Position numbers and translations under genes: made by a program
The notes under the pieces: model-generated
Databases searched by the model: none
What the model saw: the letters and a program-made list of their open reading frames with translations, nothing else
What the model was told of the DNA's origin: nothing
Source: an uncultured Anaerolineae bacterium
GTDB lineage: Bacteria > Chloroflexota > Anaerolineae > Anaerolineales > Villigracilaceae
DNA length: 42,610 nt
NCBI GenBank assembly: GCA_903846015.1
Contig: CAIMZS010000072.1
Location: forward strand, 1-42,610
Reading direction: 5' to 3'
Shown here: in pieces, positions 5,120-21,456 of the stretch
How positions within the stretch are numbered: the first letter of the stretch is position 1
Layout: each line of letters opens with the position of its first letter

Positions 5120-8002
5120 ATGACCCCATCTGAAATCAGCATTCAACGATTGCAAATCGAGCACCTGCGCGAAACCCTGGGGATAGGCATAGATCGCCCA
5201 CGTCTCTCCTGGCGGGTCGAAACTTCCATTCAGAACTGGCAGCAAGCTGGTTATGAAATCGAATGCTATGGCGCAAATGGTCAACTGAGCGATAAAACCG
5301 GGCAGGTCGCGTCCGGCCAGTCGGTGTTGGTGGTTTGGCCGTTTGCTCCGATGCAATCCCGTCAACAGGTCAGCCTGAGAATGCGGGTTTGGGGCTCGGA
5401 TGGAAGCGAATCTGCGTGGAGTGAACCTGTCAGTATCGAAACCGGATTACTCCATGCCGCGAACTGGGATGCTGATTTTATCTCTCCAGATTTTAACGAA
5501 GATACATCAAGCCCCAACCCCGCTCCTTATCTGCGGCGGAAATTTGGATTGCGTCCTGGCATCAAGTCCGCCCGGCTGTATATTACTGCTCTGGGCTTGT
5601 ACGATGCCTATATCAACGGACAGGCAGTCGGTGATCACGTATTATCCCCCGGCTGGACAGTATACGACCAGCGCCTGCGCTACCAGACCTTCGATGTGAC
5701 AGCCATGCTGCAACCGGGAGGCAATGCCATCGGTGTGATTCTCGGCGATGGCTGGTTTCGTGGACGGATTGGCTTTGGCAGCGGGAAAAGCAATATCTGG
5801 GGTGAACACCTGGCGCTGCTTGCGCAACTTGAAATCCAGTACGCCGATGGCTCAAGCGAACGGATTGTCAGTGATGACGTGTCAGCCTGGCGCGCGGCAA
5901 CCGGCGCAATTGTCACGAGCAGTATTTACGATGGCGAAACCTATGATGCGCGGCTGGAACCTGCTGGCTGGGCCGAAGCAGGGTTTGACGATGCCCGTTG
6001 GACAACAGTCCACAGGCTCGAGTGGGATTTTGAAACGTTGGAGTCTCCGCTTGGGCCGCCGGTGCGGCGCATCGAAACGGTCAAGCCCGTTTCCATCGTC
6101 CAAACCCCATCTGGCAAAACAATTTTGGATTTTGGGCAAAATCTTGTTGGCTGGTTGAATATCAAAGTAAAAGGTTCCGCCGGGCAGACCATCACCTTGC
6201 GCCATGCCGAAGTGCTCGAAAACGGTGAACTTTGTACTCGCCCACTGCGCTTTGCCGAAGCGACCGACCGCTATACGTTGCGCGGCGGGGATATCGAAGT
6301 CTGGGAGCCGCGTTTTACTTTTCACGGCTTTCGCTACGCTGAAGTGACTGGTTGGCCCGGCGAACTGCACCCGATAGTGCCCGTTCTAGCAGGGCCGGAT
6401 GATATTTGCGCGGTGGTTATTCACTCGGACATGGAGCGCACTGGCTGGTTTGAGTGCTCTGACCCGCTGATTAACCGTCTGCACGAAAATGTGGTCTGGA
6501 GCATGCGCGGCAACTTTCTGGACGTACCGACAGACTGCCCACAACGCGACGAGCGCCTGGGCTGGACGGGTGATATACAGGTCTTTACGCCCACCGCCTC
6601 TTTTTTATATGACTCCAGCGGCTTTCTCCAGTCCTGGTTGGTTGACCTGGCTGCCGGGCAGAAAAAATTGGGCGGCAGTGTTCCAGCTGTTGTTCCCGAT
6701 GTGCTCGGCTTTGGCGCGGGCGCGGCCGCCTGGGCTGATGCCGCGACGGTTGTGCCCTGGGCGCTGTACCAGCGCTTTGGCGATGCTGGCATCCTGGCGA
6801 ACCAGTTTGAAAGCATGCGCGCCTGGGTTGACCATGTCGCGTCCATCGCCGGGGAAAAGCATCTTTGGGATACTGGTTTCCAGTTTGGCGACTGGCTTGA
6901 CCCCACCGCCCCGCCTGACCAACCCGCGCAGGCTCGTACCGATAAAGCCATCGTCGCCAGTGCCTATTTTGCCCATTCCGCCGAACTGGTGGGCCGCGCC
7001 GCCGAAGTTTTGGGGCGCAGCGACGATCTCGTGGCCGTGGCTGTGCTGGAACCGGCACTTCGTAAAAACCGCTATTTAGCCCTGTCTGCTGCCGCACGGG
7101 CCGCTTTTGCGCACGAATACATCACTCCAGCCGGACGCCTGATGTGCGACGCCGAGACGGCGTATGCGCTTGCCCTGGTTTTTGATTTGTTCCCCACTAT
7201 TGAACAGCGCAAGCACGCTGGAGATCGTCTGGCAGAACTGGTGCTCGATAGCGGTTACCACATCCGCACTGGCTTTGTGGGTACACCGTTGATCTGTGAC
7301 GCGCTTTGCAGCACCGGGCATACCCTGGCTGCTTACCGCCTCTTGACCCAACGCGAGTGTCCATCCTGGCTTTACCCCGTAACAATAGGCGCGACCACTG
7401 TCTGGGAACGCTGGGACTCCATGCTCCCGGATGGCTCGATCAACCCTGGCGAAATGACTTCGTTCAACCATTATGCGCTCGGCGCTGTAGCAGATTGGAT
7501 GCACCGCGCGATTGGTGGTCTGACTCCTGCCGAGCCTGGCTATCGCCGCATAGAGATATCTCCACGCCCGGGCGGCGGTCTCACGCATGCCCAGGCCCGG
7601 CACCTTACCCCATACGGGCTGGCGGAATGTACTTGGAAAATCGAAGCGGGAAAAATTGACCTTAACGTGGTCATCCCCCCAAACACCACCGCGCTGGTCA
7701 CCCTGCCCGGCAGCGCAACCCCGCCCATCGAAGTGGGTTCCGGATCCTGGCATTGGTCGGTCCTTTACCAGGATCCGGATGTGCGCGGGCCCTATACAGT
7801 AGACGACCTGATTGGCGAAATAATGAGCTTTAGCGCTGCCCGCAACGCTGTCATGGTTGAATTGGATCGGGTGGGAGCGCCCGATTTTCTCAAAGTAGTT
7901 CTTTCCAATGAGCGTAATCTCCCCCTGCGGCAGGTGCTTCACATGCTTCCCAATTACCAGGAAGCGGTGGAAATGATGAACGCTGTTTTGGCAAATCTAT
8001 GA
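5120..8002 (+). CDS. Alpha-L-rhamnosidase (GH78)
   Basis: A 960-residue enzyme expected to hydrolyse terminal alpha-L-rhamnose from pectic or flavonoid glycans. N-terminal beta-sandwich domains (RLSWRV, then ARLYITALGLYDAYINGQ and LSPGWTVYDQRLRYQTFDVT) precede an (alpha/alpha)6 catalytic domain. That domain carries the family signature DVPTDCPQRDERLGWTGD at residues 468-485, which holds the catalytic acid and its neighbours, and TTVWERWDS further on, where the partner glutamate lies. No signal peptide is visible, so it probably acts in the cytoplasm on imported oligosaccharides. The frame is open back to 5030, but those 30 residues are pure repeat; the ATG at 5120 begins the family's usual sequence. 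Two repeat modules lie inside in frame: IVPVLAGP at residues 419-426 and about 14 residues containing VAVAVLEPAL at 637-650. Confidence 0.92.
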   Translation: MTPSEISIQRLQIEHLRETLGIGIDRPRLSWRVETSIQNWQQAGYEIECYGANGQLSDKTGQVASGQSVLVVWPFAPMQSRQQVSLRMRVWGSDGSESAWSEPVSIETGLLHAANWDADFISPDFNEDTSSPNPAPYLRRKFGLRPGIKSARLYITALGLYDAYINGQAVGDHVLSPGWTVYDQRLRYQTFDVTAMLQPGGNAIGVILGDGWFRGRIGFGSGKSNIWGEHLALLAQLEIQYADGSSERIVSDDVSAWRAATGAIVTSSIYDGETYDARLEPAGWAEAGFDDARWTTVHRLEWDFETLESPLGPPVRRIETVKPVSIVQTPSGKTILDFGQNLVGWLNIKVKGSAGQTITLRHAEVLENGELCTRPLRFAEATDRYTLRGGDIEVWEPRFTFHGFRYAEVTGWPGELHPIVPVLAGPDDICAVVIHSDMERTGWFECSDPLINRLHENVVWSMRGNFLDVPTDCPQRDERLGWTGDIQVFTPTASFLYDSSGFLQSWLVDLAAGQKKLGGSVPAVVPDVLGFGAGAAAWADAATVVPWALYQRFGDAGILANQFESMRAWVDHVASIAGEKHLWDTGFQFGDWLDPTAPPDQPAQARTDKAIVASAYFAHSAELVGRAAEVLGRSDDLVAVAVLEPALRKNRYLALSAAARAAFAHEYITPAGRLMCDAETAYALALVFDLFPTIEQRKHAGDRLAELVLDSGYHIRTGFVGTPLICDALCSTGHTLAAYRLLTQRECPSWLYPVTIGATTVWERWDSMLPDGSINPGEMTSFNHYALGAVADWMHRAIGGLTPAEPGYRRIEISPRPGGGLTHAQARHLTPYGLAECTWKIEAGKIDLNVVIPPNTTALVTLPGSATPPIEVGSGSWHWSVLYQDPDVRGPYTVDDLIGEIMSFSAARNAVMVELDRVGAPDFLKVVLSNERNLPLRQVLHMLPNYQEAVEMMNAVLANL
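6373..6396 (+). repeat. 24-bp mosaic module inside GH78
   Basis: GATAGTGCCCGTTCTAGCAG followed by GGCC, exactly 24 bases, read as IVPVLAGP. It falls between the end of a beta-sandwich domain (VTGWPGEL) and DDICAVVIHSDM, a position where the family has a short linker. The same unit is tandemly repeated in the GH3 gene and occurs in intergenic sites at 13.1 and 19.7 kb. Confidence 0.85.
7025..7066 (-). repeat. Longer mosaic module inside GH78
   Basis: The stretch beginning GATCTCGTGGCCGTG and ending GGAACCGGCACTTCGTAAA combines sequences also found together in the intergenic cluster at 14.24-14.36 kb. It adds about 14 residues within the catalytic domain between LGRSDD and YLALSAAARAAF, without breaking the frame. 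Confidence 0.8.
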
Positions 8003-8022
8003 CACGGCGATTTATCGCCGTG
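8003..8022 (+). repeat. CACGGCGAT hairpin module after GH78
   Basis: A perfect 9-bp inverted repeat with a 2-base centre (CACGGCGAT-TT-ATCGCCGTG), starting one base after the GH78 stop codon and 20 bases before the next ribosome site. It is the cleanest copy of this module in the window and would fold in the mRNA. Confidence 0.85.
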
Positions 8023-8048
8023 CTATCTACCGTAAAAAAGGTGTGCTG

Positions 8049-9029
8049 ATGATTATCAAAACCATTTATCTTTATGAGGATAGGCAGGATATAACCCTGA
8101 CCACTTATGTTCTGGCAGATTCACCAGAACTCTTGAATGGCAAAAAGCGTCCAGCGATTCTTATTTGTCCCGGTGGCGCATACATCACCTGTTCGGACAG
8201 GGAAGCCGAGCCCGTTGCGCTGCGTTTTGCGGCGATGGGTTACCATGTCTTTGTGCTGCGCTACTCAACCTACAACAATGGTGCGCCAGGTATGCCGCCT
8301 CTTGTCGGTGAAATGGTAGTCAATCAAAACAGCATTTACCCTGCGCCGATGCGGGATATTGGTAAAGCCTTCCTGACCATTCGCGCCCATGCGGACGAAT
8401 GGCTCGTGGATACAGAGAAAATCGCTCTTTGTGGTTTTTCGGCAGGTGCGCACAACTGCGCCATGTATTCGGTTTACTGGCAAGAGCCCGTCATTTGCGA
8501 ATTCTTTGGCGAAGATCCGTCCGCCTTCAAGCCCGCCGCTTCGATCCTGTGCTACGGGATCAGCGACTATCGTTTATTGTTTGGGGCATTGTCAGATCGT
8601 TTTGCCCATTTGTTAAGAGATGCATCTCAGGTTGCCTATTTGGGCACAAAATCACCCACCAACGAGTTGCTGGACATTGTCAGCCCCGCACTGCACGTAA
8701 CCAGGATGGCGCCACCTGCATTTCTCTGGGCTACTTCGGCAGACTCTCTGGTACCCGCTGAAAACACAACCAGAATGGCAACGGCAATGGCACACGCTGG
8801 AGTACCTTTTGAGGTTCACATTTTCGAGCAGGGCCAACATGGCTTGAGCCTGGCCGACCAGTCCACGGCCGGGTCTCTGTTTGAAATAGATGCGGATGCT
8901 GCCCAATGGATAGGTTTGGCCGAAGCCTGGCTAAAGAAGCGTTTTGCTCTGCAACTTCCAGAAAAACCCGTCTGGCTGGTGGAGATGGAAGCGGGTCAGG
9001 ATAGCACGGCCACGGCCGGCGGAAAATAA
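8049..9029 (+). CDS. Alpha/beta-hydrolase esterase (acetyl esterase-like)
   Basis: A 326-residue hydrolase of the BD-FAE/acetyl-xylan-esterase-like group. It has an oxyanion loop CPGGAYI, the nucleophile Ser131 in GFSAG, a late aspartate in ATSADSLVP and a histidine in EQGQHGLSL. With its glycoside hydrolase neighbours it probably removes acetyl or other acyl groups from imported oligosaccharides. There is no signal peptide. The frame also starts with GTG at 8043; the ATG at 8049 has AAGG at a better distance. The last ten residues (QDSTATAGGK) are encoded by a repeat module that runs to the stop, so the C-terminal tail was acquired from it. The stop is one base from the GH43 start, implying translational coupling. 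Confidence 0.85.
   Translation: MIIKTIYLYEDRQDITLTTYVLADSPELLNGKKRPAILICPGGAYITCSDREAEPVALRFAAMGYHVFVLRYSTYNNGAPGMPPLVGEMVVNQNSIYPAPMRDIGKAFLTIRAHADEWLVDTEKIALCGFSAGAHNCAMYSVYWQEPVICEFFGEDPSAFKPAASILCYGISDYRLLFGALSDRFAHLLRDASQVAYLGTKSPTNELLDIVSPALHVTRMAPPAFLWATSADSLVPAENTTRMATAMAHAGVPFEVHIFEQGQHGLSLADQSTAGSLFEIDADAAQWIGLAEAWLKKRFALQLPEKPVWLVEMEAGQDSTATAGGK
9000..9020 (+). repeat. Mosaic module forming an esterase C-terminus
   Basis: GATAGCACGGCCACGGCC plus GGC encodes the last residues of the esterase just before its TAA. The same TAGCACGGCCACGG string ends many intergenic copies. Confidence 0.75.
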
Positions 9030-9030
9030 A

Positions 9031-10344
9031 ATGAATCCTATCCTTTCCATCCAGCACTTTGTCCCAGATGTGGAAGCCCGCCAGTGGTCAGATGGTCGTA
9101 TGTACCTTTACGGTTCTTACGACATTAGCGGCCGGACCTGCTATTGCAGTTGGGAATATCGCGTTTTCTCCTCGGCTGATTTGATCCACTGGCAGGATCA
9201 CGGCGAAAGTTTCCGATCGGCCCCACCGAACACAAGTTTGGATTGGACTGATGCACCATTGTTTGCCCCGGACTGCATTTACCGCAATGGGTGCTATTAT
9301 CTGTTCTTTTGCAATGCTGGCAACCGGGAAGGCGTAGCGGAAAGCCTTTCTCCAACTGGCCCATTCACAAATGCCGTCCCGATTGAGGGTGCGGATCGAG
9401 ACGCAATTGACCCGGCTGTGTTAGTGGATGATGATAACCAGGTTTATTACTACTGGGGACAATTCCATCTGCGCGGCGCAAAACTGCGCCCCGATCTGAA
9501 TGGCATCCAGCCTGAAACGTTGAATACCAATCTGTTAAACGAGGCCGAACATGGTTTCCATGAAGGGGCTTCAATCCGTAAATACAACGGTCTCTATTAT
9601 CTAATATTTGCCGATATTAGCCGGGGCAGACCCACCTCCCTGGCCTATGCCACCAGCCCATCTCCGCTGGGACCCTTCACCAAGCGCGGCATCATCATTG
9701 ACAATACCGGATGCGACCCGGAAACCTGGAACAACCATGGTTCGATAGCCGAATTTAACGGGCAGTGGTACGTTTTCTATCATCGCTCCTCCCAGGCCAG
9801 CAACTTCAACCGCCGCGTCTGCGTTGAGCCAATCCATTTCAACAAGGATGGCAGCCTTAACGAAGTGGAGATGACTACCCAGGGCGTAAGCGGACCCCTG
9901 CCGGCCGCCCAACCGATCGAAGCCTGGAGGGCTTGCTTGCTCAACGGACGTGTTCGCACGGCTGCCGAAGGCCCAACGGAAAGTGATCCATCCACCCGTG
10001 AATACCTGACCCAAATCCATCTCAACGATTGGGCCGCCTACAAATACGTGGATTTTGACGCCCAACCTGTGATCACATTCCAGGCTCGCGCCGGCAGTCT
10101 GGCTTATGGTGGTGTGATCGAAATCCATCTCGACCAGCCGGATGGTGAGTTGATTGGCGCCTGCCAGGTTCAGCGTACTGGCGGATGGCAGAAATGGTCA
10201 ACCGTGAGCTGTCCCATTCAACGCGCGAAGGGCGTTCGGGCGGTTTACCTGGTTTTCAAGGGAAGAGGCAATAAGTTTGTGATCCCGAAATTTGATCCAG
10301 AAAGGTTGTTCGATCTGGAGAGTTTTTGGTTTGTGGCTGAATAA
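9031..10344 (+). CDS. Glycoside hydrolase family 43 with C-terminal carbohydrate-binding domain
   Basis: A 437-residue protein. Residues 1 to about 300 form a five-bladed propeller of GH43, a family of beta-xylosidases and alpha-L-arabinofuranosidases. The probable catalytic base is Asp13 in FVPDVEARQW, the supporting aspartate lies in DAIDPAVLVDDD, and the general acid glutamate in GFHEGASIRK. The last 130 residues (VDFDAQPVITFQARAG, QVQRTGGWQKWSTV, VYLVFKG) look like a CBM6-type beta-sandwich. The longer frame from 8944 overlaps the esterase and is not used; the ATG at 9031 begins the family sequence one base after the esterase stop. No signal peptide is seen. Which pentose it releases cannot be decided from sequence. 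Confidence 0.9.
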   Translation: MNPILSIQHFVPDVEARQWSDGRMYLYGSYDISGRTCYCSWEYRVFSSADLIHWQDHGESFRSAPPNTSLDWTDAPLFAPDCIYRNGCYYLFFCNAGNREGVAESLSPTGPFTNAVPIEGADRDAIDPAVLVDDDNQVYYYWGQFHLRGAKLRPDLNGIQPETLNTNLLNEAEHGFHEGASIRKYNGLYYLIFADISRGRPTSLAYATSPSPLGPFTKRGIIIDNTGCDPETWNNHGSIAEFNGQWYVFYHRSSQASNFNRRVCVEPIHFNKDGSLNEVEMTTQGVSGPLPAAQPIEAWRACLLNGRVRTAAEGPTESDPSTREYLTQIHLNDWAAYKYVDFDAQPVITFQARAGSLAYGGVIEIHLDQPDGELIGACQVQRTGGWQKWSTVSCPIQRAKGVRAVYLVFKGRGNKFVIPKFDPERLFDLESFWFVAE

Positions 10345-10349
10345 GCAGC

Positions 10350-10364
10350 CTAGCACGGCGATTT
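10350..10364 (+). repeat. Half CACGGCGAT module beside the inverted-repeat element
   Basis: TAGCACGGCGATTTA is the left half of the hairpin module, cut off where the 10361-10545 element begins. The other half is not adjacent, which suggests the element inserted into or next to a repeat. Confidence 0.6.
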
Positions 10365-10545
10365 ATGGCTCTCTGGAAATTGGCGTGGTAAAAAACCATT
10401 GGACGCGGACGAGCGGCCCTGCTAGAACGGGCACTATCGCGGAAAACGCGGATAAAACCGTATTTTTCAGGTCATTTCTGCGTTTTATACTGATTACGCC
10501 AGTGCTAACTTCGAATTTCACGGAAAGTTCCAAAGAGCCATAAAT
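10361..10545. mobile_element. Small terminal-inverted-repeat element (MITE-like), full copy
   Basis: About 185 bp bounded by imperfect inverted ends: ATTTATGGCTCTCTGGAA on the left and, inverted, ATTTATGGCTCTTTGGAA on the right (19 of 21 positions match over the fuller length). It has no coding capacity. A second copy without the right end lies at 35687-35843. The interior carries a mosaic module (GCTAGAACGGGCACTATCGC). I see no clear target-site duplication. It fits a non-autonomous element moved by a transposase encoded elsewhere. Confidence 0.65.
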
Positions 10546-10548
10546 TTG

Positions 10549-10592
10549 ATGGTACCCGGTTCTAGCGATAGCACGGCGATAAATCGCCGTGT
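10549..10592 (+). repeat. Mosaic repeat with hairpin module
   Basis: GGTACCCGGTTCTAGCGATAG followed directly by the perfect hairpin CACGGCGAT-AA-ATCGCCGTG (10572-10591). It lies about 40 bases upstream of the GH1 start, so it is probably in that leader. Confidence 0.85.
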
Positions 10593-10632
10593 GACACAAA
10601 TGTAATTTAACCCTTATTCAGGAGACTATTCA

Positions 10633-11868
10633 ATGAAAGAATATATTTTTCCGAAAGATTTTATGTGGGGCGCGTCCACCGCTGCCCATCAGGTGGAGGG
10701 TAACAACATCAATAGTGAGAGCTGGGTTTTGGAACATCTGCCCGGAACCATCTATGCCGAACCATCCGGGGATGCCATCGATCATTATCACCGCTACCCA
10801 TCCGATATTGCCCTGCTGGCAGAGCTCGGTTTCAATTCCTACCGCTTCTCGATTGAATGGGCGCGCATTGAGCCGGAGGATGGCGAGTTTTCTTACGCCG
10901 AGCTTGAACATTATCGTCGTATGCTGGCAGCCTGCCATGAGCATGGCATCAAACCGGTGGTGACCTTTCACCATTTCACCACGCCGCGTTGGTTGATGCG
11001 CCAGGGCGGCTGGCTGGATGAAAAGACGCCTGAGCGCTTCGCCCGCTACGTTGAACGAGCCGCCAAACACCTTGGTGATCTGATCAGCGTTGCCTGCACG
11101 GTCAATGAACCCAATCTGCCGGTACTCCTTTCCAAAATACTGCCTTTTAAAATAGAAGAAACGCCCTTTTGGAACACCGCGGCGCAAGCATTTGGCGTGC
11201 TTCCCGACCAATTGGGATTGTTCCAGTTCGTAGCCAGGCCCCGCATGCGCGAAATCATTCTGGCAGCACACCGGCGGGCTTTCGATGCCCTCCATTCCGG
11301 GCCGGGCAGCTTCCCAGTTGGACTGACCCTGGCTTTGGTGGATATTCAAGCGGCTGAAGGTGGCGAGAGCAAGGCGGCGGAGTTTCGCCGGGAATTGGCG
11401 GATGACTACCTGGAGCAGTTGCGCGGCGACGATTTCGTCGGTGTCCAGACCTATTCGCGCATGCTCGTTGGACCGCATGGCATGATCCGGCCTGGCGATG
11501 ATGTGGAAAAGAACCAGATGGGTGAGGAGTACTATCCAGAGGCAATCGGAGGAACCATCCGTCATGCCTCCAGCGTAGCGGGAATTCCCGTTATCGTGAC
11601 CGAAAATGGTTTTTCGTCCACGGATGATTTCCGCCGTTTGGAATATTTCCAGTATGCGCTGCGTAGCGTTGCCAACTGCCTTGAGGATGGCATTGATGTG
11701 CGCGGTTACTTATGCTGGTCCGCTTTTGATAACTTTGAATGGATCAGTGGGTATCGCCCCCTGTTTGGCATCATTGCCGTTGATCGTGAAACCCAGCAGC
11801 GCAGCCCCAAACCCAGCGCTTATTGGTTGGGGAACGTGGCTCGTGCCAATCGAACCCAATTCAAATGA
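10633..11868 (+). CDS. Beta-glucosidase / beta-glycosidase (GH1)
   Basis: A 411-residue (beta/alpha)8 barrel of family GH1, slightly shorter than the usual 440-450. It opens with the family N-terminus FPKDFMWGASTAAHQVEG. The acid/base is Glu159 in TVNEPN and the nucleophile Glu324 in VTENG. LCWSAFDNFEWISGY near the C-terminus forms the aglycone site. It hydrolyses beta-linked glucose, galactose or fucose from oligosaccharides, probably in the cytoplasm since no signal peptide is seen. AGGAG lies 9 bases before the ATG. A different leader with repeats and the inverted-repeat element separates it from GH43, so it may have its own promoter. Confidence 0.92.
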   Translation: MKEYIFPKDFMWGASTAAHQVEGNNINSESWVLEHLPGTIYAEPSGDAIDHYHRYPSDIALLAELGFNSYRFSIEWARIEPEDGEFSYAELEHYRRMLAACHEHGIKPVVTFHHFTTPRWLMRQGGWLDEKTPERFARYVERAAKHLGDLISVACTVNEPNLPVLLSKILPFKIEETPFWNTAAQAFGVLPDQLGLFQFVARPRMREIILAAHRRAFDALHSGPGSFPVGLTLALVDIQAAEGGESKAAEFRRELADDYLEQLRGDDFVGVQTYSRMLVGPHGMIRPGDDVEKNQMGEEYYPEAIGGTIRHASSVAGIPVIVTENGFSSTDDFRRLEYFQYALRSVANCLEDGIDVRGYLCWSAFDNFEWISGYRPLFGIIAVDRETQQRSPKPSAYWLGNVARANRTQFK

Positions 11869-11908
11869 ATTTGCTGTTCATGCCTGTCATGAAGCGTATG
11901 AATAAATA

Positions 11909-11957
11909 GGATATCCGGTTCTGCGATAGTGCCGGATCCAGCACGGCCACGGGCAAA
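11909..11957 (+). repeat. Mosaic palindromic repeat, site 13
   Basis: GGATATCCGGTTCTGCGATAG, TGCCGGATCCAGCACGG, CCACGGGCAAAGAT. It lies about 40 bases after the GH1 stop in the same orientation as the gene. Confidence 0.85.
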
Positions 11958-12011
11958 GATAAGCACGTGGTGTAACTTTATTCTGCACCGCACTTTAAAG
12001 GTACGTAATAA

Positions 12012-12040
12012 TTGTTAGTTTGACCCCAAAATGATACACT
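12012..12040 (+). promoter_or_regulatory. Candidate sigma70-type promoter for the HSL-type esterase
   Basis: TTGTTA and TACACT are separated by 17 bases, ending 35 bases before the esterase start and after the mosaic repeat. Both boxes are imperfect. Confidence 0.35.
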
Positions 12041-12075
12041 GAACCATCCCACAGACCGGAAGGAAATCTCAACAG

Positions 12076-13086
12076 ATGAAACCGACCATTGCCGCTGTAC
12101 ATCCTGAAATGCAAGAAATTGCCAGCAAAATGCCGCAGTTCCCCTTCACTGCCAGAACGCTCTGGTTGTTCCGATTCCTGATCAGGGTATTGATCAAACC
12201 GGCTCCAATGCCTGTAGATATCCAGGTAAAGAGCACTTTTATCACCAGCCAGGATCAAAAAACTAAAATTCGCATTCGCATCTATCAGCCCCAGGCGACC
12301 ACATCCAAAGCCCCAGCGCTGCTGTGGATGCATGGCGGAGGGTACATTGGTGGTGTCCCCGAGCAAGATGATGCTTATGTGCTTCCCTTTATCCAGGAAA
12401 CTGGCGTGGTAGTAGTTTCGGTGGATTACCGCCTTGCGCCTGATTACTCCTTCCCGACGCCGCTCGAAGATTGCTACAGCGCTTTGAAATGGCTCGCCGC
12501 CGATGCGGGTGCGCTCGGCATTGATCCGCAGCGTATCGCGCTTGGCGGCAACAGTGCGGGCGCCGGACTGGCAGCCGCACTGGCCCAACTCGCCCATGAT
12601 CGCGGCGAAATCCGACCCATATTCCAACTCCTGGTCTACCCCATGCTCGATGATCATACCGCCACCCGCAAGGATATTGATCCGGAAGCTTACTATGTCT
12701 GGAATAATAACTACAACCGGTTCGGGTGGGAGTCATACCTGAAACAGCCCTGCGGCATGGATAAAGTACCTGCCGGTTCCGTGCCCGCCCGCCGGGCAGA
12801 TCTCTCCGGGCTAGCCCCAGCATGGATCGGTGTTGGCACAATCGATCTGTTCCACGATGAGGATGTTGCTTACGCCCGGCGACTCAAAGAAGCCGGTGTC
12901 CAATGTGAACTGGTCACCGTCACTGGCGCTTTTCACGGTTTCGACATATCCGCCCCAAACACACAGGTGGTCAAGGATTTCCGCAAGTCTCAAGTACAGG
13001 CGTTGAAAAATGCCCTGAAAGTTGGCTTTACGGAAGTCCCGGTTCCAGCACGAGAGGATAGTCCCGGTTCCAGCACGAGACGATAG
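12076..13086 (+). CDS. HSL-family alpha/beta-hydrolase esterase with repeat-derived tail
   Basis: A 336-residue carboxylesterase of the hormone-sensitive-lipase (fold 3) family. The oxyanion motif HGGG starts at His86, the nucleophile is Ser160 in GGNSAGAG, the acid is an aspartate in DLFHDEDVAYA and the base a histidine in AFHGFD. It would hydrolyse short acyl esters. GGAAGG precedes the ATG by about 12 bases. The last 17 or so residues (VPVPAREDSPGSSTRR) are encoded by two tandem GTCCCGGTTCCAGCACGAG modules, and the stop TAG lies inside the repeat (CGATAG). The ancestral stop has therefore probably been replaced. The core fold is complete before the tail. Confidence 0.88.
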   Translation: MKPTIAAVHPEMQEIASKMPQFPFTARTLWLFRFLIRVLIKPAPMPVDIQVKSTFITSQDQKTKIRIRIYQPQATTSKAPALLWMHGGGYIGGVPEQDDAYVLPFIQETGVVVVSVDYRLAPDYSFPTPLEDCYSALKWLAADAGALGIDPQRIALGGNSAGAGLAAALAQLAHDRGEIRPIFQLLVYPMLDDHTATRKDIDPEAYYVWNNNYNRFGWESYLKQPCGMDKVPAGSVPARRADLSGLAPAWIGVGTIDLFHDEDVAYARRLKEAGVQCELVTVTGAFHGFDISAPNTQVVKDFRKSQVQALKNALKVGFTEVPVPAREDSPGSSTRR

Positions 13087-13168: not shown

Positions 13169-13239
13169 TCGACGCTCGAATTGACTTATAACGTGTACCA
13201 TCCATTGAAATATGATTTTCAACTCATAAGGAGTAAGGG

Positions 13240-14238: not shown

Positions 14239-14239
14239 A

Positions 14240-14361: not shown

Positions 14362-14438
14362 AAACCGCCAGAGCTAGATTGCCACGCCGCAAAGCACGCG
14401 GATCGCAATGACAATCATTTCATCCCCAGGAGCCTTAC

Positions 14439-16706
14439 ATGTCACCGACACCCCTCGATTCTTCAATTACCACTCCCGCCTATCGCAACCCCACCTTGAC
14501 TGTTGACGAACGTGTGGCCGATTTGCTTGGCCGCATGACCCTTGAGCAAAAGATCGGTCAACTGATGTTGTGGGATGCACGCAGCGAAGATCTCTCATTT
14601 ATAAATACCCGCCAACCCGGATCCGTCCTCCATATTCTAGGAGCCAAGGTCAGCCGCGCAATAGACCTGGCCGGACAGAACCACCTTGGAATTCCGCTGC
14701 TCGTTGGCGAGGACGCCATCCACGGGCACTCTTTTTGGAAAGGCGCGACCATCTTTCCGACCCAATTGGCGTTGGCGGCGAGCTGGAATATCGAACTGCT
14801 TGAACAGGTTGGGCGCGTGACTGCCGAGGAGGTGTCTTCGACGGGCATCCACTGGACGTTCTCGCCTGTGCTCTGCCTTTCGCGCGATCTGCGCTGGGGC
14901 CGCACCGGTGAAACATTTGGCGAGGATCCCCATCTGATCGGCGAGCTCGGCGCTGCTTTAATTCGTGGCTACCAGGGCCTGGGTCTCGACGATCCAACGG
15001 CGGTGCTCGCCACCGTGAAGCACTATGCCGGCTATTCCGAGACACAGGGCGGACGCGACTCATCTGAGGCCGACATCTCGCGGCGCAAACTGCGCAGCTA
15101 CTTCCTGCCACCATTCGAGCGCGCCGTCCGGGCAGGTGCGATGACCTTCATGACTGGCTACCAGTCGATAGAGGGCCTGCCTTCAACCATCAACCGCTGG
15201 CTTCTGACGGATGTGCTTAAAAACGAGTGGGGCTTCCGCGGCGTGCTCGTAACTGACTGGGATAATGTCGGTCGCCTTGTCAGGGAGCAGAAAGTGTGCG
15301 AAACGATCAGCGATGCCGCGATCGTGGCATTGCGCGCCGGAAACGACATCATCATGACGACACCGCAGTTCTACGAGGGGGCGCTTGAGGCAGTGCACAG
15401 TGGGCGCCTCGCTGAGTCAGAAATCGATGCGCCTTGCGCCCGCCTGCTTGCGCTGAAATTCCGCATGGGCCTCTTTGAGAATCCGCGCCGTCCTGACCTG
15501 GATCGTGCCGCTATCGAGGTCGCGCGACCTGACCATCGCGCCATTAATCTTGAAGCCGCACGCCAGAGTCTGGTACTGCTCCAGAACAATGGCCTGCTTC
15601 CACTTGATTCAGCATCGGTCAAATCCATCCTGGTGGTTGGCCCCAACGCCGATGATGACCAGCAGCAGCTGGGTGACTGGTCACTCGGTTCGCCGCAGCA
15701 CCCGCCGGAAGCCGGCAAGCAGCCGCGCGAAAAGACAACGACCGTGCTCGATGGTATCCGCGCCCTGGTACCGGCCGGCTGCCTGGTCTCTCATGAACGC
15801 GGCTGTTCGATCATCGACGACGATCTCTCCGGCCTCCCCGCCGCGCTTGCCGCTGCGCAGACGGCTGACGTGGTGGTGGCTGTTGTAGGTGATCACCTGA
15901 ATTTTATCGGTGAAACGCAGAGCACCGCCACACTTGAGTTGCAGGGCGGACAGATAGACTTGCTGGATGCGTTGGAAAAAACCGGAAAGCCGATGATTAT
16001 TGTGCTGGTGAACAGCAAGCCGCTCGTGCTGCCGCCTTCGGCCAAACGCGCTGCGGCGATTCTTGAGGGCTTCAACCCTGGCATGGAGGGCGGACGGGCG
16101 CTTGCCGAGGCATTGTTCGGCCAACTGAATCCGTCTGGCAAGCTCACAATCTCGATCCCGGTGCACGTTGGCCAACAGCCGGTGTTCTACAGCCAGGTGC
16201 GCGGTCAACATGGCGATCGCTACGCAGATCTCACCCAGATACCGCTCTTCTCTTTTGGTCACGGCCTGAGTTATACGCAGTATCGCTATTCGAACTTGCG
16301 ACTGTCCTCGCCTACACTCACGCGCGGGCAAATTGCGATAGTGCCCGTACTAGCAGGGCCGATAGTGCCCGTACTAGCAGGGCCGATAGTGCCCGTACTA
16401 GCAGGGCCGGAGGTGTCTGTCGATGTGGAGAATAGCGGCAAGTATGCAGGTGTCGAAATCGTACAGGTCTATGTCACCGATGTTGTGACATCAGCAACCT
16501 GGGTGAACAAGGCGCTCAAGGGTTTCGCCCGTGTGCACCTGGCACCTGGTGAGAAGAAGACGGTGCGGATCGAGTTGCCATGGGAAGCGTTCCAGATTGT
16601 GGATGCCGAGGGCCGCAGCGTGGTTGAGCCGGGTGAGTTTGAGATTCTTGTGGGTTCATCGTCACGTGACAGTGATCTACTGAAGGCAACGCTGCGGGTG
16701 GAATAA
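14439..16706 (+). CDS. Beta-glucosidase / beta-xylosidase (GH3) with internal tandem repeat
   Basis: A 755-residue family GH3 enzyme. The N-terminal (beta/alpha)8 domain carries KHYAGY and the nucleophile Asp273 in VTDWDN. A second alpha/beta domain (SILVVGPNADD, GFNPGMEGGRALAEALFG) follows, and a C-terminal fibronectin-III-like domain (VENSGKYAGVEIVQVYV). No signal peptide is seen. AGGAG lies 7 bases before the ATG. Residues 634-657 are three perfect copies of IVPVLAGP from a 24-bp tandem repeat. They sit in a loop at the start of the fibronectin-like domain, between TLTRGQIA and EVSVDVENSG. The domain is otherwise complete, so activity may be unaffected. It completes the set of hydrolases in this locus. 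Confidence 0.92.
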   Translation: MSPTPLDSSITTPAYRNPTLTVDERVADLLGRMTLEQKIGQLMLWDARSEDLSFINTRQPGSVLHILGAKVSRAIDLAGQNHLGIPLLVGEDAIHGHSFWKGATIFPTQLALAASWNIELLEQVGRVTAEEVSSTGIHWTFSPVLCLSRDLRWGRTGETFGEDPHLIGELGAALIRGYQGLGLDDPTAVLATVKHYAGYSETQGGRDSSEADISRRKLRSYFLPPFERAVRAGAMTFMTGYQSIEGLPSTINRWLLTDVLKNEWGFRGVLVTDWDNVGRLVREQKVCETISDAAIVALRAGNDIIMTTPQFYEGALEAVHSGRLAESEIDAPCARLLALKFRMGLFENPRRPDLDRAAIEVARPDHRAINLEAARQSLVLLQNNGLLPLDSASVKSILVVGPNADDDQQQLGDWSLGSPQHPPEAGKQPREKTTTVLDGIRALVPAGCLVSHERGCSIIDDDLSGLPAALAAAQTADVVVAVVGDHLNFIGETQSTATLELQGGQIDLLDALEKTGKPMIIVLVNSKPLVLPPSAKRAAAILEGFNPGMEGGRALAEALFGQLNPSGKLTISIPVHVGQQPVFYSQVRGQHGDRYADLTQIPLFSFGHGLSYTQYRYSNLRLSSPTLTRGQIAIVPVLAGPIVPVLAGPIVPVLAGPEVSVDVENSGKYAGVEIVQVYVTDVVTSATWVNKALKGFARVHLAPGEKKTVRIELPWEAFQIVDAEGRSVVEPGEFEILVGSSSRDSDLLKATLRVE
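16337..16408 (+). repeat. Perfect 3 x 24-bp tandem array inside GH3
   Basis: Three identical units beginning GATAGTGCCCGTACTAGCAG and ending GGCC lie back to back at 16337, 16361 and 16385. Units are 24 bases, so gain or loss of copies keeps the frame. The module is the same as at 6373-6396 except for one base (A for T). Perfect identity implies recent or continuing duplication. Confidence 0.95.
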
Positions 16707-16709
16707 AGA

Positions 16710-16771
16710 TAGCACGGCGATTTACGGAAGTCCCGGTTCCTGCGATGGTGCCGGTTCTAGCACGGCCACGG
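16710..16771 (+). repeat. Mosaic palindromic repeat, site 18
   Basis: TAGCACGGCGATTTA (left half of the hairpin module), GGAAGTCCCGGTTCCTGCGAT, then GGTGCCGGTTCTAGCACGG and CCACGGG. It follows the GH3 stop by a few bases. Confidence 0.85.
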
Positions 16772-16814
16772 GTATGATACCATAATTTGTGGCACGTTCC
16801 ATCCCTTTTCCCGC

Positions 16815-16820
16815 TATAAT
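16815..16820 (+). promoter_or_regulatory. -10 box of a probable leaderless promoter
   Basis: A perfect TATAAT ends 6 bases before the response regulator ATG, and no ribosome site fits between them. Transcription would start at or within a base of the ATG, giving a leaderless mRNA. No good -35 box is seen at the usual distance. Confidence 0.55.
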
Positions 16821-16826
16821 TTCACT

Positions 16827-17543
16827 ATGAACGATAACCCAACCCTCCTGCTTGCCGATGATGATCCAACTATCACCAACAGCCTGGTACCTTTCTTTGA
16901 ACGCTCCGGGTTCCACATGCTGGTCGCTTCCAATGGTGCTGATGCGCTTGAAAAAGCCCAGGTGCATCGCCCAGACTTGATTATATTGGATGTGCTTATG
17001 CCTCGCATGGATGGGCGCGAGGTGCTGCGTCGCTTGCGTCGCGCCGGGTTGCAAACGCCAACCATCCTGCTCACCCAGGTCGGGGACGCCGTCGAACGCG
17101 CGGTGGCTCTGGAGGAAGGCGCAGATGACTATCTGAACAAACCTTTCGAGTCGCATGAACTGCTGGCGCGTGTGCGCGCCGTGTTGCGTCGTTCACAAAG
17201 CGGGCAACCATCGCTTTCCACGGCCTGGCGACTCTCCGCTCATGACCTGACTATCGATCGTCGCGCGCGCCGAGCCAGTCTCAATGGTAAGTCGCTCGAT
17301 CTGAGCCCCAAAGCCTTTGCCGTGCTCGAATACCTTATGACCCATCCAGATGAAGTTTTCAGCCGCGAACGGCTTTTGCAGCTCGTTTGGGGCTGGGAAT
17401 ACCCCACCGGTACCCGTACCGTTGACACACGCATGTTCGAGCTTCGCAAGGCTCTGGGGGACAACCCGACTGAACCCAAATTCATTGAAACACAGGCCGG
17501 TGAAGGTTACTGCTTCATTGCCCCGGTCAGGATGCTGCCGTGA
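16827..17543 (+). CDS. OmpR/PhoB-family response regulator
   Basis: A 238-residue DNA-binding response regulator. The receiver domain has the acidic pair in LLLADDDP, the phosphorylated Asp55 in LIILDVLMPRMDG, and the conserved lysine in YLNKPF. A C-terminal winged helix (LTIDRRARRASLNGKSLDLS, RLLQLVWGW, TRTVDTRMFELRKAL) is of the OmpR class, which binds tandem direct repeats about 11 bases apart. A TATAAT just upstream suggests a leaderless transcript. Its stop overlaps the GTG start of the histidine kinase by four bases, so the two form an operon. Three 11-base-spaced repeats upstream of the secreted protein gene at 18647 are a likely target. Confidence 0.93.
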   Translation: MNDNPTLLLADDDPTITNSLVPFFERSGFHMLVASNGADALEKAQVHRPDLIILDVLMPRMDGREVLRRLRRAGLQTPTILLTQVGDAVERAVALEEGADDYLNKPFESHELLARVRAVLRRSQSGQPSLSTAWRLSAHDLTIDRRARRASLNGKSLDLSPKAFAVLEYLMTHPDEVFSRERLLQLVWGWEYPTGTRTVDTRMFELRKALGDNPTEPKFIETQAGEGYCFIAPVRMLP

Positions 17544-18451
17544 AACGTCTTTCTGCCATTCTCGTGTTGGTTTTCCTCGCAATCGGTGCCCTGGCATATT
17601 ATCTGACCCCCTTTTTCTGGCAGCCAGAGCCAATCTTAGCTTTTCGGCTGGGCATTGGCGCGGCGATTTTTACGATTATGTTTACTTTGGCAGTTCTGAT
17701 CCAGATCATCATCATTATTTACGATCGGGGAACAGAACAATCTGCTCGAAACGTCACTCGTGAACAGGACGAATTACACCGCCAATTCCTGCGGCGGCTC
17801 GATCATGAGTTGAAAAATCCTCTCACGGGCTTGCAGGCGGCCCTCACCAACCTGCGCGAGGCTCAAAACGCCGGTGAAACTCACGCTGCGATCGAGAATG
17901 CCAGCCAGGCAGCTACCCGCCTGGGACGCATCCTGCGAGACTTGCGCAAATTGGCTGAGCTTGATGCCACAATGCTCGAACGCCGCCCGCTGGATGTGGG
18001 TGAATTGGTAAGTGAAATGGTCAGTGCGGCTGGCAACCTGCCGGCCTACCACGAGCGCAGTATCAATCTGTTGGTTTCAAAGGTGCCAGCCCTGCCGCCT
18101 GTGATCGGCGACCGTGACATACTTGGGCTGGCTATTTTCAACCTGATCGACAACGCACTCAAATTCAGCGCGTCCAGCGATGCCGTTGAAGTGCGCGTAC
18201 GCGATGATGGTCACGCGCTTTTCATTGAAGTAGCCGATAGCGGTGCAGGTATTCCATCCCAGGACCAGCAACGGATTTTCGATGACCTTTATAGAGGCGA
18301 AAATGCCCGTGGCACACAAGGCAGCGGTGTGGGGTTGGCGCTGGCACGACGAATTGTCCAACTCCATTGGGGAGAGATTTCCATGCGCAGCGACCCGGCT
18401 CACGGGCGGGGTACCGTTTTCACAATTCGTCTGCCTGCAGACCGGAAATAG
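17540..18451 (+). CDS. Sensor histidine kinase
   Basis: A 303-residue inner-membrane kinase starting with GTG within the response regulator stop. Two membrane helices (about residues 4-22 and 36-61) are joined by only a dozen residues, so there is no sizeable outside sensor domain; it may sense the membrane or a partner protein. The dimerisation/phosphoacceptor domain has His89 in RRLDHELKNPLTG. The ATPase domain has an N box in FNLIDNALKFS, a G1 box in VADSGAGIP and a G2 box in GSGVGLALARRIV. It should phosphorylate the regulator encoded just upstream. Confidence 0.92.
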   Translation: MKRLSAILVLVFLAIGALAYYLTPFFWQPEPILAFRLGIGAAIFTIMFTLAVLIQIIIIIYDRGTEQSARNVTREQDELHRQFLRRLDHELKNPLTGLQAALTNLREAQNAGETHAAIENASQAATRLGRILRDLRKLAELDATMLERRPLDVGELVSEMVSAAGNLPAYHERSINLLVSKVPALPPVIGDRDILGLAIFNLIDNALKFSASSDAVEVRVRDDGHALFIEVADSGAGIPSQDQQRIFDDLYRGENARGTQGSGVGLALARRIVQLHWGEISMRSDPAHGRGTVFTIRLPADRK

Positions 18452-18533
18452 CACGGCGATTTACGATAGCCCCGGTTCCAGCGATAGTGCCGGTTCTAGC
18501 ACGGCCACGGGTAATGCCCGTGCAGAGCCGGGT
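18449..18533 (+). repeat. Mosaic palindromic repeat, site 19
   Basis: TAGCACGGCGATTTA, then GATAGCCCCGGTTCCAGCGAT, AGTGCCGGTTCTAGCACGG, CCACGGG, and GCCCGTGCAGAGCCGGGTACC. It begins at the stop of the histidine kinase gene. A related short hairpin (GCCCG-TACAGAAC-CGGGC) lies at 18611-18628, just before the next ribosome site. Confidence 0.8.
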
Positions 18534-18548
18534 ACCATGTCACGAAAC

Positions 18549-18576
18549 CGTGACGCAGCCATGACAGGCTTGTGAC
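18549..18576 (+). promoter_or_regulatory. Three direct repeats at 11-bp spacing (OmpR/PhoB-type operator candidate)
   Basis: CGTGAC (18549), CATGAC (18560) and TGTGAC (18571) are spaced exactly 11 bases apart, the geometry bound by OmpR/PhoB-type regulators. On the other strand they read GTCACA, GTCATG and GTCACG, like the TGTCA core of Pho boxes. The last repeat overlaps the probable -35 box (TTGTGA at 18570, 17 bases, TAGGAT at 18593). GTCACG-AAAC-CGTGAC (18539-18554) is also a palindrome. Confidence 0.55.
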
Positions 18577-18646
18577 ATCCAACCGATATAAATAGGATAT
18601 CACATTCAATGCCCGTACAGAACCGGGCACCATTAGGAGACCTCTC

Positions 18647-19531
18647 ATGAAACGTTCGATTTTTACACTGGTTGCTTCTGTTCTTTTGCTCGGTTTGAGT
18701 TGGGTTGTGCCCCACAGCCCGTTTAAAGTGGAAGTGCAAATACCCACCCCAACGCTAGTACCATCTGGAGGTGCAGTATCTATTGCCCTGCCCACTCCCG
18801 ATTCAGCCTCTGCGCAAGGCGGTATTCAGGTCAGCTACCAGAATGTTTCCCTGGTCATTCCAGCGGGATTGGCCAGTGGAGCTGACAGCGAAATCGGGGC
18901 AGCCATTGAAGCCCCAGATGGCTATTACACCGCATCCAATGCCCCGGCGTTTACCCGTGTTATCCTGAAAGATTATCCAGTCTTGTCCTCTGATGATTTT
19001 TACAAACCGGAAGTGAGAATTTACCCGGCGGCCGAATATACTGCCATGAGTTTATGGGCTGCCGAAACTCTGAAGCGCCTGCAAAATGTGCTGGCTAACC
19101 CGTCTTCGCCTTTGGAGAACGATATCCTACCCAACGTAGCCTTTATGGGCTCCGCAGCTCAGAACTACGCCGCGCAGGTCAAAATTCTGCCCTTCCAAAA
19201 CGGAAACGGCGTGCGCATGATCTCGCATTATGCCCAGTACCCCGCCCCCATTAGCCAGAATGAAAGCTTTTACCATTATGAAGGACTTACCCAGGATGGG
19301 AAATATTACGTGGTGGTGGAGATGCCGCTGATCCTCCCGATCTACTCAGATGGCAATAACCCTGGCGAAAATGGGATCACGTACCCAGCAGACCGGAATA
19401 ACCCTGCTGAAATGGTTGCCTACTATAAATCGATGACCAATTTATTGAACTCTGCCGGGCAGGAAACCTTCAAGCCCACTCTCGCTCAATTGGATGCGCT
19501 CGTGCAGTCCATCATCGTAACGACAAAATAA
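18647..19531 (+). CDS. Secreted or membrane-anchored protein of unknown function
   Basis: A 294-residue protein with an N-terminal hydrophobic segment (about residues 5-24, preceded by KR), so it is exported or anchored by its N-terminus. A proline/threonine-rich linker follows (PTPTLVPSGG). The rest, with VSYQNVSLVIPAGLASG and a tyrosine-rich C-terminal region, looks globular and extracellular. I recognise no domain or catalytic motif. AGGAG lies 8 bases before the ATG. It follows the two-component genes and carries an operator-like repeat array upstream, so it is probably their target. A strong hairpin follows the stop. Confidence 0.75.
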   Translation: MKRSIFTLVASVLLLGLSWVVPHSPFKVEVQIPTPTLVPSGGAVSIALPTPDSASAQGGIQVSYQNVSLVIPAGLASGADSEIGAAIEAPDGYYTASNAPAFTRVILKDYPVLSSDDFYKPEVRIYPAAEYTAMSLWAAETLKRLQNVLANPSSPLENDILPNVAFMGSAAQNYAAQVKILPFQNGNGVRMISHYAQYPAPISQNESFYHYEGLTQDGKYYVVVEMPLILPIYSDGNNPGENGITYPADRNNPAEMVAYYKSMTNLLNSAGQETFKPTLAQLDALVQSIIVTTK

Positions 19532-19540
19532 ATCCGAAAA

Positions 19541-19573
19541 CGAGTGTGGCAATCTGCGAGATTGCCACACTCG
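19541..19573 (+). terminator. Strong hairpin, probable terminator
   Basis: A 15-bp perfect stem (CGAGTGTGGCAATCT and its complement) with a 3-base loop lies 10 bases after the secreted protein stop, between convergent genes. There is no T run, so efficiency is uncertain. Confidence 0.6.
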
Positions 19574-19609
19574 TCTGAATTGCAGATAAGGTCCTGGGTC
19601 TGGGCCCAT

Positions 19610-19705
19610 AGTACCCGGTTCACTTTGCCCGTCTCACTCTTACTCTTGCTCTAATCTGCGTAAATCTGCGATAGTGCCCGTTCTAGCAGGGCCAGGGCCG
19701 GTTCA
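19610..19705 (+). repeat. Compound mosaic repeat at the pxpA 3' end
   Basis: TACCCGGTTCACTTTGCCCG, then CTTGCTCTAATCTGCGTAAA, TCTGCGATAGTGCCCGTTC, TAGCAGGGCC and GGTTCAGACAC. The same CTCTAATCTGCG...GGTTCAGACAC string occurs at 27.95 and 32.86 kb. The stop codon of pxpA (- strand TGA) lies inside the GGTTCAGACAC module. Confidence 0.8.
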
Positions 19706-20449
19706 GACACACAATGGCGTTACTTCCACCCCGTTCAAGTGCAGGGTTTCACGGATCAAGATGGCGTTGCTCACGGCATTTGGGTTATCACTATGCAGGC
19801 ACAGTGTATCAATACGAACGGGTTTCCCGTCAAAAAGGATGCCTTCGGTGGCAAGCTTAAGCGCATGGGCAGCTATCTGCTGTGGGTCTTCGAGCAGCGC
19901 CCCAGGCAGGCTGCGTGACACCAACGTGCCATCCGGGTTGTACGCACGGTCTGGGAAGGCTTCACTGGCAACATGCAGCCCAAGCTCAAGACCGGCAGCC
20001 ACGATCTGTGACCCTGCCAGGCCAACCAGGATTAACTCACTGCTGAAAGATTTGATGGCGCGTGCAATTGCCATAGCCAGGGCGCGATCCCTGGCAGCCT
20101 GGTTGTAAAGTTCACCATGTGGTTTAACGTGACGCAGCTGCACACCTTCAGCGCGGGCAAAGGCGGAAAGTGCGCCAATTTGATATAGCAGCATTGCTCC
20201 GGCTTCTTCGGGAGCAACCGCCATTTTTCGCCGGCCAAAGCCCTGCAGATCAGGCCAGCCAGGGTGAGCGCCGATGGCGACGCCGTGCTGATGAGCCAGG
20301 CGAACGCTGGTTTGCATCACAGATGAATCTCCGGCATGAAACCCGCATGCGATGTTGGCGGATGTAATATGCGACATAAGGGCTGCATCAGAACCCAGGC
20401 TGTAAAGCCCAAAAGATTCACCCAGGTCAGAATTCAGGTCGATTTTCAT
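19703..20449 (-). CDS. pxpA: 5-oxoprolinase subunit A (LamB/YcsF family)
   Basis: 248 residues. PxpA, with PxpB and PxpC, forms the ATP-dependent 5-oxoprolinase that opens 5-oxoproline to glutamate in the cytoplasm. Family motifs are plain: DLNSDLGESFG at the N-terminus, ANIACGFHAGD, GAHPGWPDLQGFGRR and HVKPHGELYN. AAGGTG lies 6 bases before the ATG at 20449. It is third in the order pxpB-pxpC-pxpA, 23 bases after pxpC. The final residues and stop fall in a mosaic repeat module, so the C-terminus may have been trimmed or replaced by one or two residues. Confidence 0.95.
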   Translation of the reverse strand: MKIDLNSDLGESFGLYSLGSDAALMSHITSANIACGFHAGDSSVMQTSVRLAHQHGVAIGAHPGWPDLQGFGRRKMAVAPEEAGAMLLYQIGALSAFARAEGVQLRHVKPHGELYNQAARDRALAMAIARAIKSFSSELILVGLAGSQIVAAGLELGLHVASEAFPDRAYNPDGTLVSRSLPGALLEDPQQIAAHALKLATEGILFDGKPVRIDTLCLHSDNPNAVSNAILIRETLHLNGVEVTPLCV

Positions 20450-20472
20450 TTTTCACCTTATCTGTACGATTA

Positions 20473-21456
20473 TTACCACGAATAATCATCAATTTCGGGC
20501 TGGATGATGCTTTCGGCCAGGTTTTTTAGCAAGACGCGATAACGAGTCTGGGCCTGCTCGATGGTGCTGAGCTCGAAGCGGATGCGTCCGCTGCCAACCG
20601 GAACTTGCGCCAGCACGGGCTGATCGGCCGAAATGACAGATGCAATCTTCGGGTAACCGCCTATCGTAGGGCAGTCGGCTTGCATGACGATCGGAAGCCC
20701 ATTGATGGGCACCTGGATGCAGCCACGTGCCATACCTTCAGAAATGAGTTCAGTTGTGATAGCTCTTTCGATGGGCGCACCGTCTAAGCGGTACCCGCTG
20801 CGGTCGGAAGCTGAATTAATGGTGTAAGTGGAAGAGAGCAGTGTTTGCAATCCGAAAGATGTGAAGTGGGAAACCTGCGGGCCAGGGATGATTTGGATGG
20901 TTGGATTGGCAGAATAGCACGGCGATTTATCGTCGTGGCCTTCCAAAATGCGGCGCCCGGCCAGTTCAAGCAAGTTGTGTTTGGAAGGGCCGATGGGCAG
21001 CAGATCTCCACGCTGCAGGGCTACCTGGCCTGCGCTTTTTTCCGCGCCTAACCTGGCGCGCAGGTACGTGGAGCGGGAGCCAAGCGCAAGCGGGGTGTTA
21101 ATGCCGCCGTGAACTGCCAGATAGGCCCAATTTCCGGGACCGGTTTTCTTGATACGGATGGGATAATTTGCGCGCACATACACTGATGAGCACAGTGGTA
21201 TGTCAAAATCCCCTACCTGGAGAGAAAAACCAACGCCCGTCAGTGCCACCAGGCAGGCATGTTGGGCGATGAAAACAGCGCTGCTAAATCCGATCTCCAC
21301 CGCGCATGCAGCCGGCGGGTTGGCAACCACTACGTTGGCAGCCTGCAAAGCGAAGGCATCCATTGGGCCAGAAATGGGCACGCCAAATGCCTGCCAGCCG
21401 TGACGGCCACCATCCTGCAGCGTAGTGAGCGCGGCGGGTTCAAGCACTTCAAGCAT
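20473..21456 (-). CDS. pxpC: 5-oxoprolinase subunit C (biotin-dependent carboxyltransferase fold)
   Basis: A 327-residue PxpC/KipA-type subunit. Typical motifs are LTTLQDGGRHGWQAFGVPIS, SGPMDAFALQAANVVVAN, WAYLAVHGGI, and the C-terminal YRLDG followed by LISEGMARGCIQVPINGLPI. The longer frame begins at 21543, but the ATG at 21456 starts the family sequence and overlaps the end of pxpB by a few bases, indicating coupling. Residues 174-181 (HDDKSPCY) come from a CACGGCGAT hairpin module inserted in frame in a linker before the conserved PTIQIIPGPQ. Most relatives have only a short variable segment there. The rest appears intact. Confidence 0.93.
   Translation of the reverse strand: MLEVLEPAALTTLQDGGRHGWQAFGVPISGPMDAFALQAANVVVANPPAACAVEIGFSSAVFIAQHACLVALTGVGFSLQVGDFDIPLCSSVYVRANYPIRIKKTGPGNWAYLAVHGGINTPLALGSRSTYLRARLGAEKSAGQVALQRGDLLPIGPSKHNLLELAGRRILEGHDDKSPCYSANPTIQIIPGPQVSHFTSFGLQTLLSSTYTINSASDRSGYRLDGAPIERAITTELISEGMARGCIQVPINGLPIVMQADCPTIGGYPKIASVISADQPVLAQVPVGSGRIRFELSTIEQAQTRYRVLLKNLAESIIQPEIDDYSW
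20915..20937 (+). repeat. CACGGCGAT hairpin module inside pxpC
   Basis: TAGCACGGCGATTTATCG followed by TCGTG matches the intergenic hairpin modules at 8003 and 10572 with one base changed in the right arm. It adds eight residues to PxpC without a stop or frameshift, although this module has stops in some other frames. Confidence 0.85.

Follow-up and report, generated by a model that had tools for sequence, protein, structure and literature searches.

Several enzyme genes in a 42,610-nt stretch of Anaerolineae (Chloroflexota) DNA, referred to here as the window, contain short repeated peptides, and the question that they raise is whether these peptides were inserted into the proteins and, if so, why the reading frame is kept. 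An earlier note had proposed that repeat modules lie inside these genes, always in frame and always in linkers. The peptides that it named, namely IVPVLAGP and VAVAVLEPAL in a GH78 enzyme, three consecutive IVPVLAGP in a GH3 enzyme and HDDKSPCY in a PxpC-like protein, could all be located (Table 1). As contig C72, the window belongs to a 6.5-Mb MAG (662 contigs, 5.85% contamination), the one genome of the species on which the analysis rests. Two of the units concerned, a and b, are 24 bp long and conform to CGATAGTGCC[C/G]GTTCTAGCA[G/C]GGC. Their core matches the MAG 411 times, as compared with 0 matches for the reversed control, which is well above what chance would give.

Table 1. Repeat units in the window and the enzyme genes that carry them; coordinates are positions in the window
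Feature	Position	Strand	Basis
GH78 alpha-L-rhamnosidase gene	5120..8002	+	Pfam Bac_rhamnosid domains; PDB 6gsz, 3w5m
Unit a in GH78, read IVPVLAGP	6372..6395	+	Exact core match; 8-residue gap in orthologue L074
Unit b (7039-7062) with 12-nt tail in GH78, antisense LVAVAVLEPAL	7027..7062	-	12-residue gap in L074, L075, L077
GH3 gene	14439..16706	+	Pfam; PDB 8xrt, 5z9s
Three head-to-tail copies of unit a in GH3, IVPVLAGP x3	16336..16407	+	24-residue gap in L083, L084, L085
PxpC-like gene, CT_A_B domain	20473..21456	-	Pfam PF02626
Unit d in PxpC, minus-strand read HDDKSPCY	20914..20937	+	Net +4 to +5 residues vs L097, L098
Two tandem 25-bp units c, 3' end of alpha/beta-hydrolase-like gene (12076-13086)	13030..13080	+	Sequence match
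Unit b nested in c-like unit, intergenic	18481..18504	+	Sequence match
Unit a inside AATCTGCG repeat, intergenic	19668..19691	+	Sequence match
Unit b nested in another unit, intergenic	22154..22177	+	Sequence match
Unit b, intergenic	29899..29922	+	Core match
Unit a within 123-bp repeat (10367-10489)	10417..10440	-	Sequence match
Unit a within second copy of 123-bp repeat (35689-35811)	35739..35762	-	Sequence match
Unit b, intergenic	19..42	-	Core match
Unit b adjoining d-like fragment	2531..2554	-	Core match

The 24 residues encoded by the three units in the GH3 gene (3 x 24 bp) are missing from three species whose flanking sequences are 82-84% identical, and the closest solved GH3 homologues are also without them. 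According to Pfam, the insert lies between the Glyco_hydro_3_C domain, which ends at 612, and the Fn3-like domain, which starts at 673. The GH78 gene, whose ORF opens at 5030 within repeat-derived sequence and whose likely start is at 5120, gives a comparable picture: an orthologue with flanks 75-77% identical shows gaps of 8 and 12 residues at the two inserts, which the closest solved homologues of GH78 lack as well. For these two enzymes, aligned orthologues and solved structures thus bear out the view that the peptides are insertions and not ancestral residues. The placement of all copies in linkers holds for GH3, whereas both GH78 inserts sit within Pfam domains, at places where homologues vary in length, and the PxpC copy also falls within a domain.

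That the same peptide recurs in several enzymes might suggest an ancestral or functional motif that is selected as a peptide. We give this explanation practically no credence, since orthologues and solved homologues do without the peptides, the same DNA yields four unrelated peptides in four phases, and this DNA lies mostly between genes. The peptides instead very probably arise by translation of mobile DNA units of very small size, which would insert blindly with respect to frame and be kept where the frame is safe.

Insertion was examined by cutting 19-30 nt from each of 196 a/b copies and seeking the joined 20-nt junction elsewhere in the sample, that is, in 1.86 Mb of stretches chosen partly for contigs with matches, from which the in-gene counts were also drawn. 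When 24 nt were excised, the junction was present elsewhere for 88 of the 196 copies, some of these being copies in tandem arrays for which another array served as the empty junction; excision of 19-23 or 25-29 nt gave an empty junction for 0-4 copies. The 15 copies with an empty junction after excision of 30 nt, as against 0-4 at neighbouring lengths, possibly represent one unit nested in another. What units a and b add to a site is exactly 24 bp. Among the empty sites are AATCTGC^GGTTCAGAC and TTGTCATTGC^GAGC; others lie inside units b, c and e. The units nest in one another and in other repeats. C is nearly always the base found at the target's right edge, mostly as CG or CA. A strict CG target duplication was discarded as a general rule, because at GC^A sites unit b is flanked by CG on the left and by CA on the right. 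At non-tandem sites, the inserted length of unit c is 25 nt. Unit e, which has a tandem period of 23 nt and no clear peak of insertion length at non-tandem sites, would, judging from that period, insert as 23 bp.

Across the sampled 1.86 Mb, 42 of the 174 a/b loci (about 24%) lie within genes, a copy being scored as in-gene when it stood at least 60 bp inside a gene, called with a home-made gene caller, and had coding signal on both sides. The statement that the 24-bp core is open in four of its six frames was correct: of the six a/b phases, two are interrupted by a TAG stop. In-gene copies occupy each of the four that are open, with counts of 19, 15, 10 and 9; these are conditional on an open ORF, so that zero copies in a stop phase are expected by construction. 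The four octapeptide readings are IVPVLA[G/R]P; DSA[G/R]SS[T/R]A; [A/V]LEPALS or LLERALS; and RARTGTI or PARTGTI. Nineteen in-gene loci are spanned by relatives from the genus, and the unit is found in none of the relatives listed. Clean gaps of 8 residues are seen at L109, in three relatives, and at L100, an E2-like gene, and a clean gap of 16 residues at L036. Many other in-gene gaps measure 7-19 residues and not a clean 8, because of nesting between the units and pieces of other units. At L112 (14853-14876), for example, 18-19 residues including unit b are missing from orthologues that are 82-89% identical in the flanks.

Some of the host genes deserve separate description. The L112 gene looks like an asparaginase-type autoproteolytic enzyme, and its unit b, together with fragments, directly precedes GDTVGAIAMDASG, near the expected cleavage site. 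At L100 (4736-4759), unit b follows KNDVL of the subunit-binding domain in a dehydrogenase E2-like gene, and at L058 (9509-9532) it lies inside a gene of the ATP-NAD kinase family; both enzymes are probably important. The PKS-like genes of L063 (4-11173) carry many units, among them d units and a triple b array just before the SAFGFGGTNAH motif, and a 396-bp internal repeat there has its own b unit.

The access of the units to genes varies with their length. Unit c was found inside genes at 4 of 48 loci (p 0.016 versus a/b) and unit e at 1 of 75 (Fisher p 2e-6 versus a/b). Upon inspection, 27/30-nt variants seem to account for two of the four in-gene c cases, and an over-called gene start probably for one; a further in-gene c-like copy, at L057 (6019), corresponds to a 9-residue gap relative to an orthologue 86% identical. 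A strict unit-level count gave 47 of 196 a/b units in genes and 2 of 90 for c and e together (p 9e-7), the units being non-independent where they belong to tandem arrays or to the duplicated segments in L063. Units a and b do not break the frame in genes because 24 bases make exactly eight codons, and c and e are rare there because their lengths would shift it. The tandem c units of the window illustrate the effect: they read VPVPARE and then, in a shifted frame, DSPGSSTRR, a change caused by the 25 bp. We conclude that the 24-bp length and selection together leave in-frame copies. The claim that the modules are always in frame accordingly stands as a description of the in-gene copies and fails as a property of insertion. 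Three units outside gene interiors had been flagged as possible gene splitters. The stop-phase copy at L046 (8469) was dismissed, as it sits between separate genes, DUF952 and DUF2298; L070 (3391) and L100 (14115, unit e), both near gene edges, are candidate split genes.

The expansion of units a and b is recent and restricted to this lineage, because the core has 411 matches in this genome, 2 in G008, the MAG of a relative in the same genus, and 0 in each of the other 59 of the 60 relatives searched. In a scan of 84,980 species genomes, from which the window's own genome was perhaps excluded, the sole exact match came from the G008 MAG, and a search for the exact unit in viral contigs found none. 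In G008, the sister unit e is present in 22 copies, some of them in tandem arrays with a 23-bp period; such arrays stand at the starts of its contigs C192 and C231 (L032, L202), and b-like copies number only two in this sister species. The pattern may represent a progenitor state. Given the 662 contigs, the contamination of 5.85% and several contigs that end in units, the repeats might be suspected of being an artefact of assembly or binning. This is very improbable: copies occur in mid-contig, in hundreds of contexts and with exact 24-nt boundaries, their length-dependent exclusion from genes has no technical cause, and G008, another MAG, has related units.

The copy in the PxpC-like gene is of another kind. 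Although it had been grouped with the others, it belongs to a different unit, d, a perfect palindrome (fold z -7.4) whose family is distinct from a/b and which is found inside genes at 13 of 32 loci. The PxpC copy lies within the Pfam domain, in a loop whose length varies among relatives, and the difference from those relatives amounts to only about 4-5 residues, which does not sustain the claim of an insertion for this gene. Other in-gene copies of d behave similarly, with net changes versus relatives of +3 to +4 residues at L063 (15525-15548) and of +1 and +5 to +8 residues at the two sites of L117 (2936-2959 and 3395-3418). Since these net changes are small, d is not inserted as a clean block of 24 bp; it may take the place of residues in the loop instead of adding to them.

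The course of events that we propose for a/b is as follows. The units enter sites that have C at the right edge, each time as exactly 24 bp, as the empty junctions show, and they also enter each other and other repeats; they have multiplied recently in one Anaerolineae species, as their absence from orthologous sites shows. Insertion itself would ignore the reading frame, to judge from the sister units. A copy landing in a gene would add one of four octapeptides (eight codons, with a stop in two of the six phases) and would survive where the protein can accommodate a lengthened loop or linker, the frame being conserved and the tolerance presumed. Head-to-tail duplication could then add further multiples of eight residues, as in the threefold array of GH3. 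Sister units of other lengths would spread likewise and, as the counts show statistically, stay rare in genes by shifting the frame. The copying would presumably be done in trans by an enzyme.

As regards this enzyme, the units could be REP/REPIN-like, with a RAYT (TnpA-REP) transposase moving them in single-stranded form, an account that differs in mechanism and agrees with the insertion and frame results. Their small size, intergenic bias and dispersed copies would fit, some c units start with a GTAG-like sequence (GGTAGTCCC), and REPs are known inside ORFs (PMC3733652). Nevertheless, this account is rather improbable, since the folding of a/b is not stronger than that of shuffled sequence (z about -0.8), with a weak 4-bp stem at most, and since they insert as a single 24-bp unit and not as a REP doublet. 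Moreover, this genome has only two Y1_Tnp matches, a number like that of relatives that lack the repeats, and of its two Y1 loci the one examined contains no unit. Alternatively, the units may spread via an RNA copy through a reverse transcriptase acting in trans, which again concerns mechanism only and which we consider unlikely, if less so than the transposase. The fixed unit length and the nesting at a preferred position would be consistent with it, as would pairs 7-23 and 10-20, in which both partners differ from one family to another among a, b and c. The stems are weak, however, and these family-level changes could be single events, so that a hairpin role of the units is only suggested. 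Spread by RNA copying was reportedly proposed for the small dispersed repeats (SDRs) of cyanobacteria. Reverse transcriptase genes are present in this genome (5 matches), but they are as common in G008 (8 matches), and no unit was seen at the reverse transcriptase loci examined. Both drivers were set aside, neither being specific to this genome nor flanked by units at the loci examined.

Whichever enzyme copies them, mobile units that enter coding sequence have precedents. The Rickettsia palindromic elements (RPEs) and their Wolbachia counterpart are selfish-looking repeats that are found in frame in unrelated protein genes as well as between genes (PMC10969869, PMC3767692). Units a and b resemble them in entering ORFs without destroying the frame, as the 42 in-gene loci and the orthologue gaps attest. 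The likeness to the RPE type goes no further, since RPEs are palindromic and about 100-150 bp long, whereas a/b are 24 bp and essentially non-palindromic; in addition, RPE sites are often common to orthologues of several species, while here no relative examined has the unit at the orthologous site. The earlier note was right to regard the case as independent of Rickettsia, but Rickettsia is not the sole precedent. REPs, repeats of 20-40 bp that occur singly or in groups, are mostly intergenic, with a minority inside ORFs of several species (PMC3733652). Each forms a palindromic stem-loop that bears a GTAG or CGTC tag, and they often occur as dimers close to RAYT genes. Units a and b, in contrast, start with CGATAG and lack a strong stem-loop and a clear tag, although some c units begin with GGTAG; at the Y1 locus examined, no association with a RAYT gene was seen.

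A parallel in size and nesting is offered by the SDRs of Nostoc-type cyanobacteria, which, reportedly (Elhai et al. 2008), are 21-27 nt long, dispersed, inserted into each other and into other repeats, and, it is said, confined to a coherent group of genomes. The units described here, with 24 nt (a/b), 25 nt (c) and a 23-nt period (e), fall within this range, and nesting in their own copies or in other repeats occurs here too. As for the hairpins of SDRs, pairs 7-23 and 10-20 switch between families here, with energies not below those of shuffled sequences. The differences are the phylum, the large share of copies in frame inside genes, and sister families that differ by one nucleotide in length and have different access to genes. 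By analogy, a/b work like an SDR that is able to live in genes too. GC clusters of yeast mitochondrial DNA are likewise very short, mobile and rich in G+C, and they enter one another and at times coding sequence; they belong to a eukaryote organelle. A literature search on Chloroflexi repeats inside genes found nothing relevant. The units are an unusually small, lineage-restricted variant of a known phenomenon.

This variant amounts to a natural experiment on the entry of selfish DNA into proteins, in which 24-bp units have about 24% of their loci in genes and the 23- and 25-bp families are rare there. With empty sites, insert-free orthologues and enzymes of known fold at hand, the cost of an added octapeptide is directly measurable; the finding also points to some mechanism by which a unit as short as 24 bp can be copied. 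One could go further and suppose that the 24-bp length was favoured as eight codons, so that only 24-bp lineages, as opposed to those of 23 or 25 bp, could use genes as safe harbours and reach copy numbers in the hundreds, with octapeptides routinely added to enzymes, and that a/b are among the smallest mobile DNA units known; we put this pair of ideas forward tentatively, and they may well not hold.

A few further observations concern the remaining repeats and the edges of the window. The long NSNINDDD tandem repeat within a gene at L041 (10531-10680) has no relation to the mobile units. The two copies of the 123-bp repeat are 97% identical and have unit a at the same place in each; this suggests that a larger repeat spread with the unit inside it. 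An Rfam search of the window returned a tRNA and nothing else. The tRNA gene at 41170-41241 adjoins a phage-type integrase-like gene (41366-42409), an arrangement typical of the edge of an integrated element.
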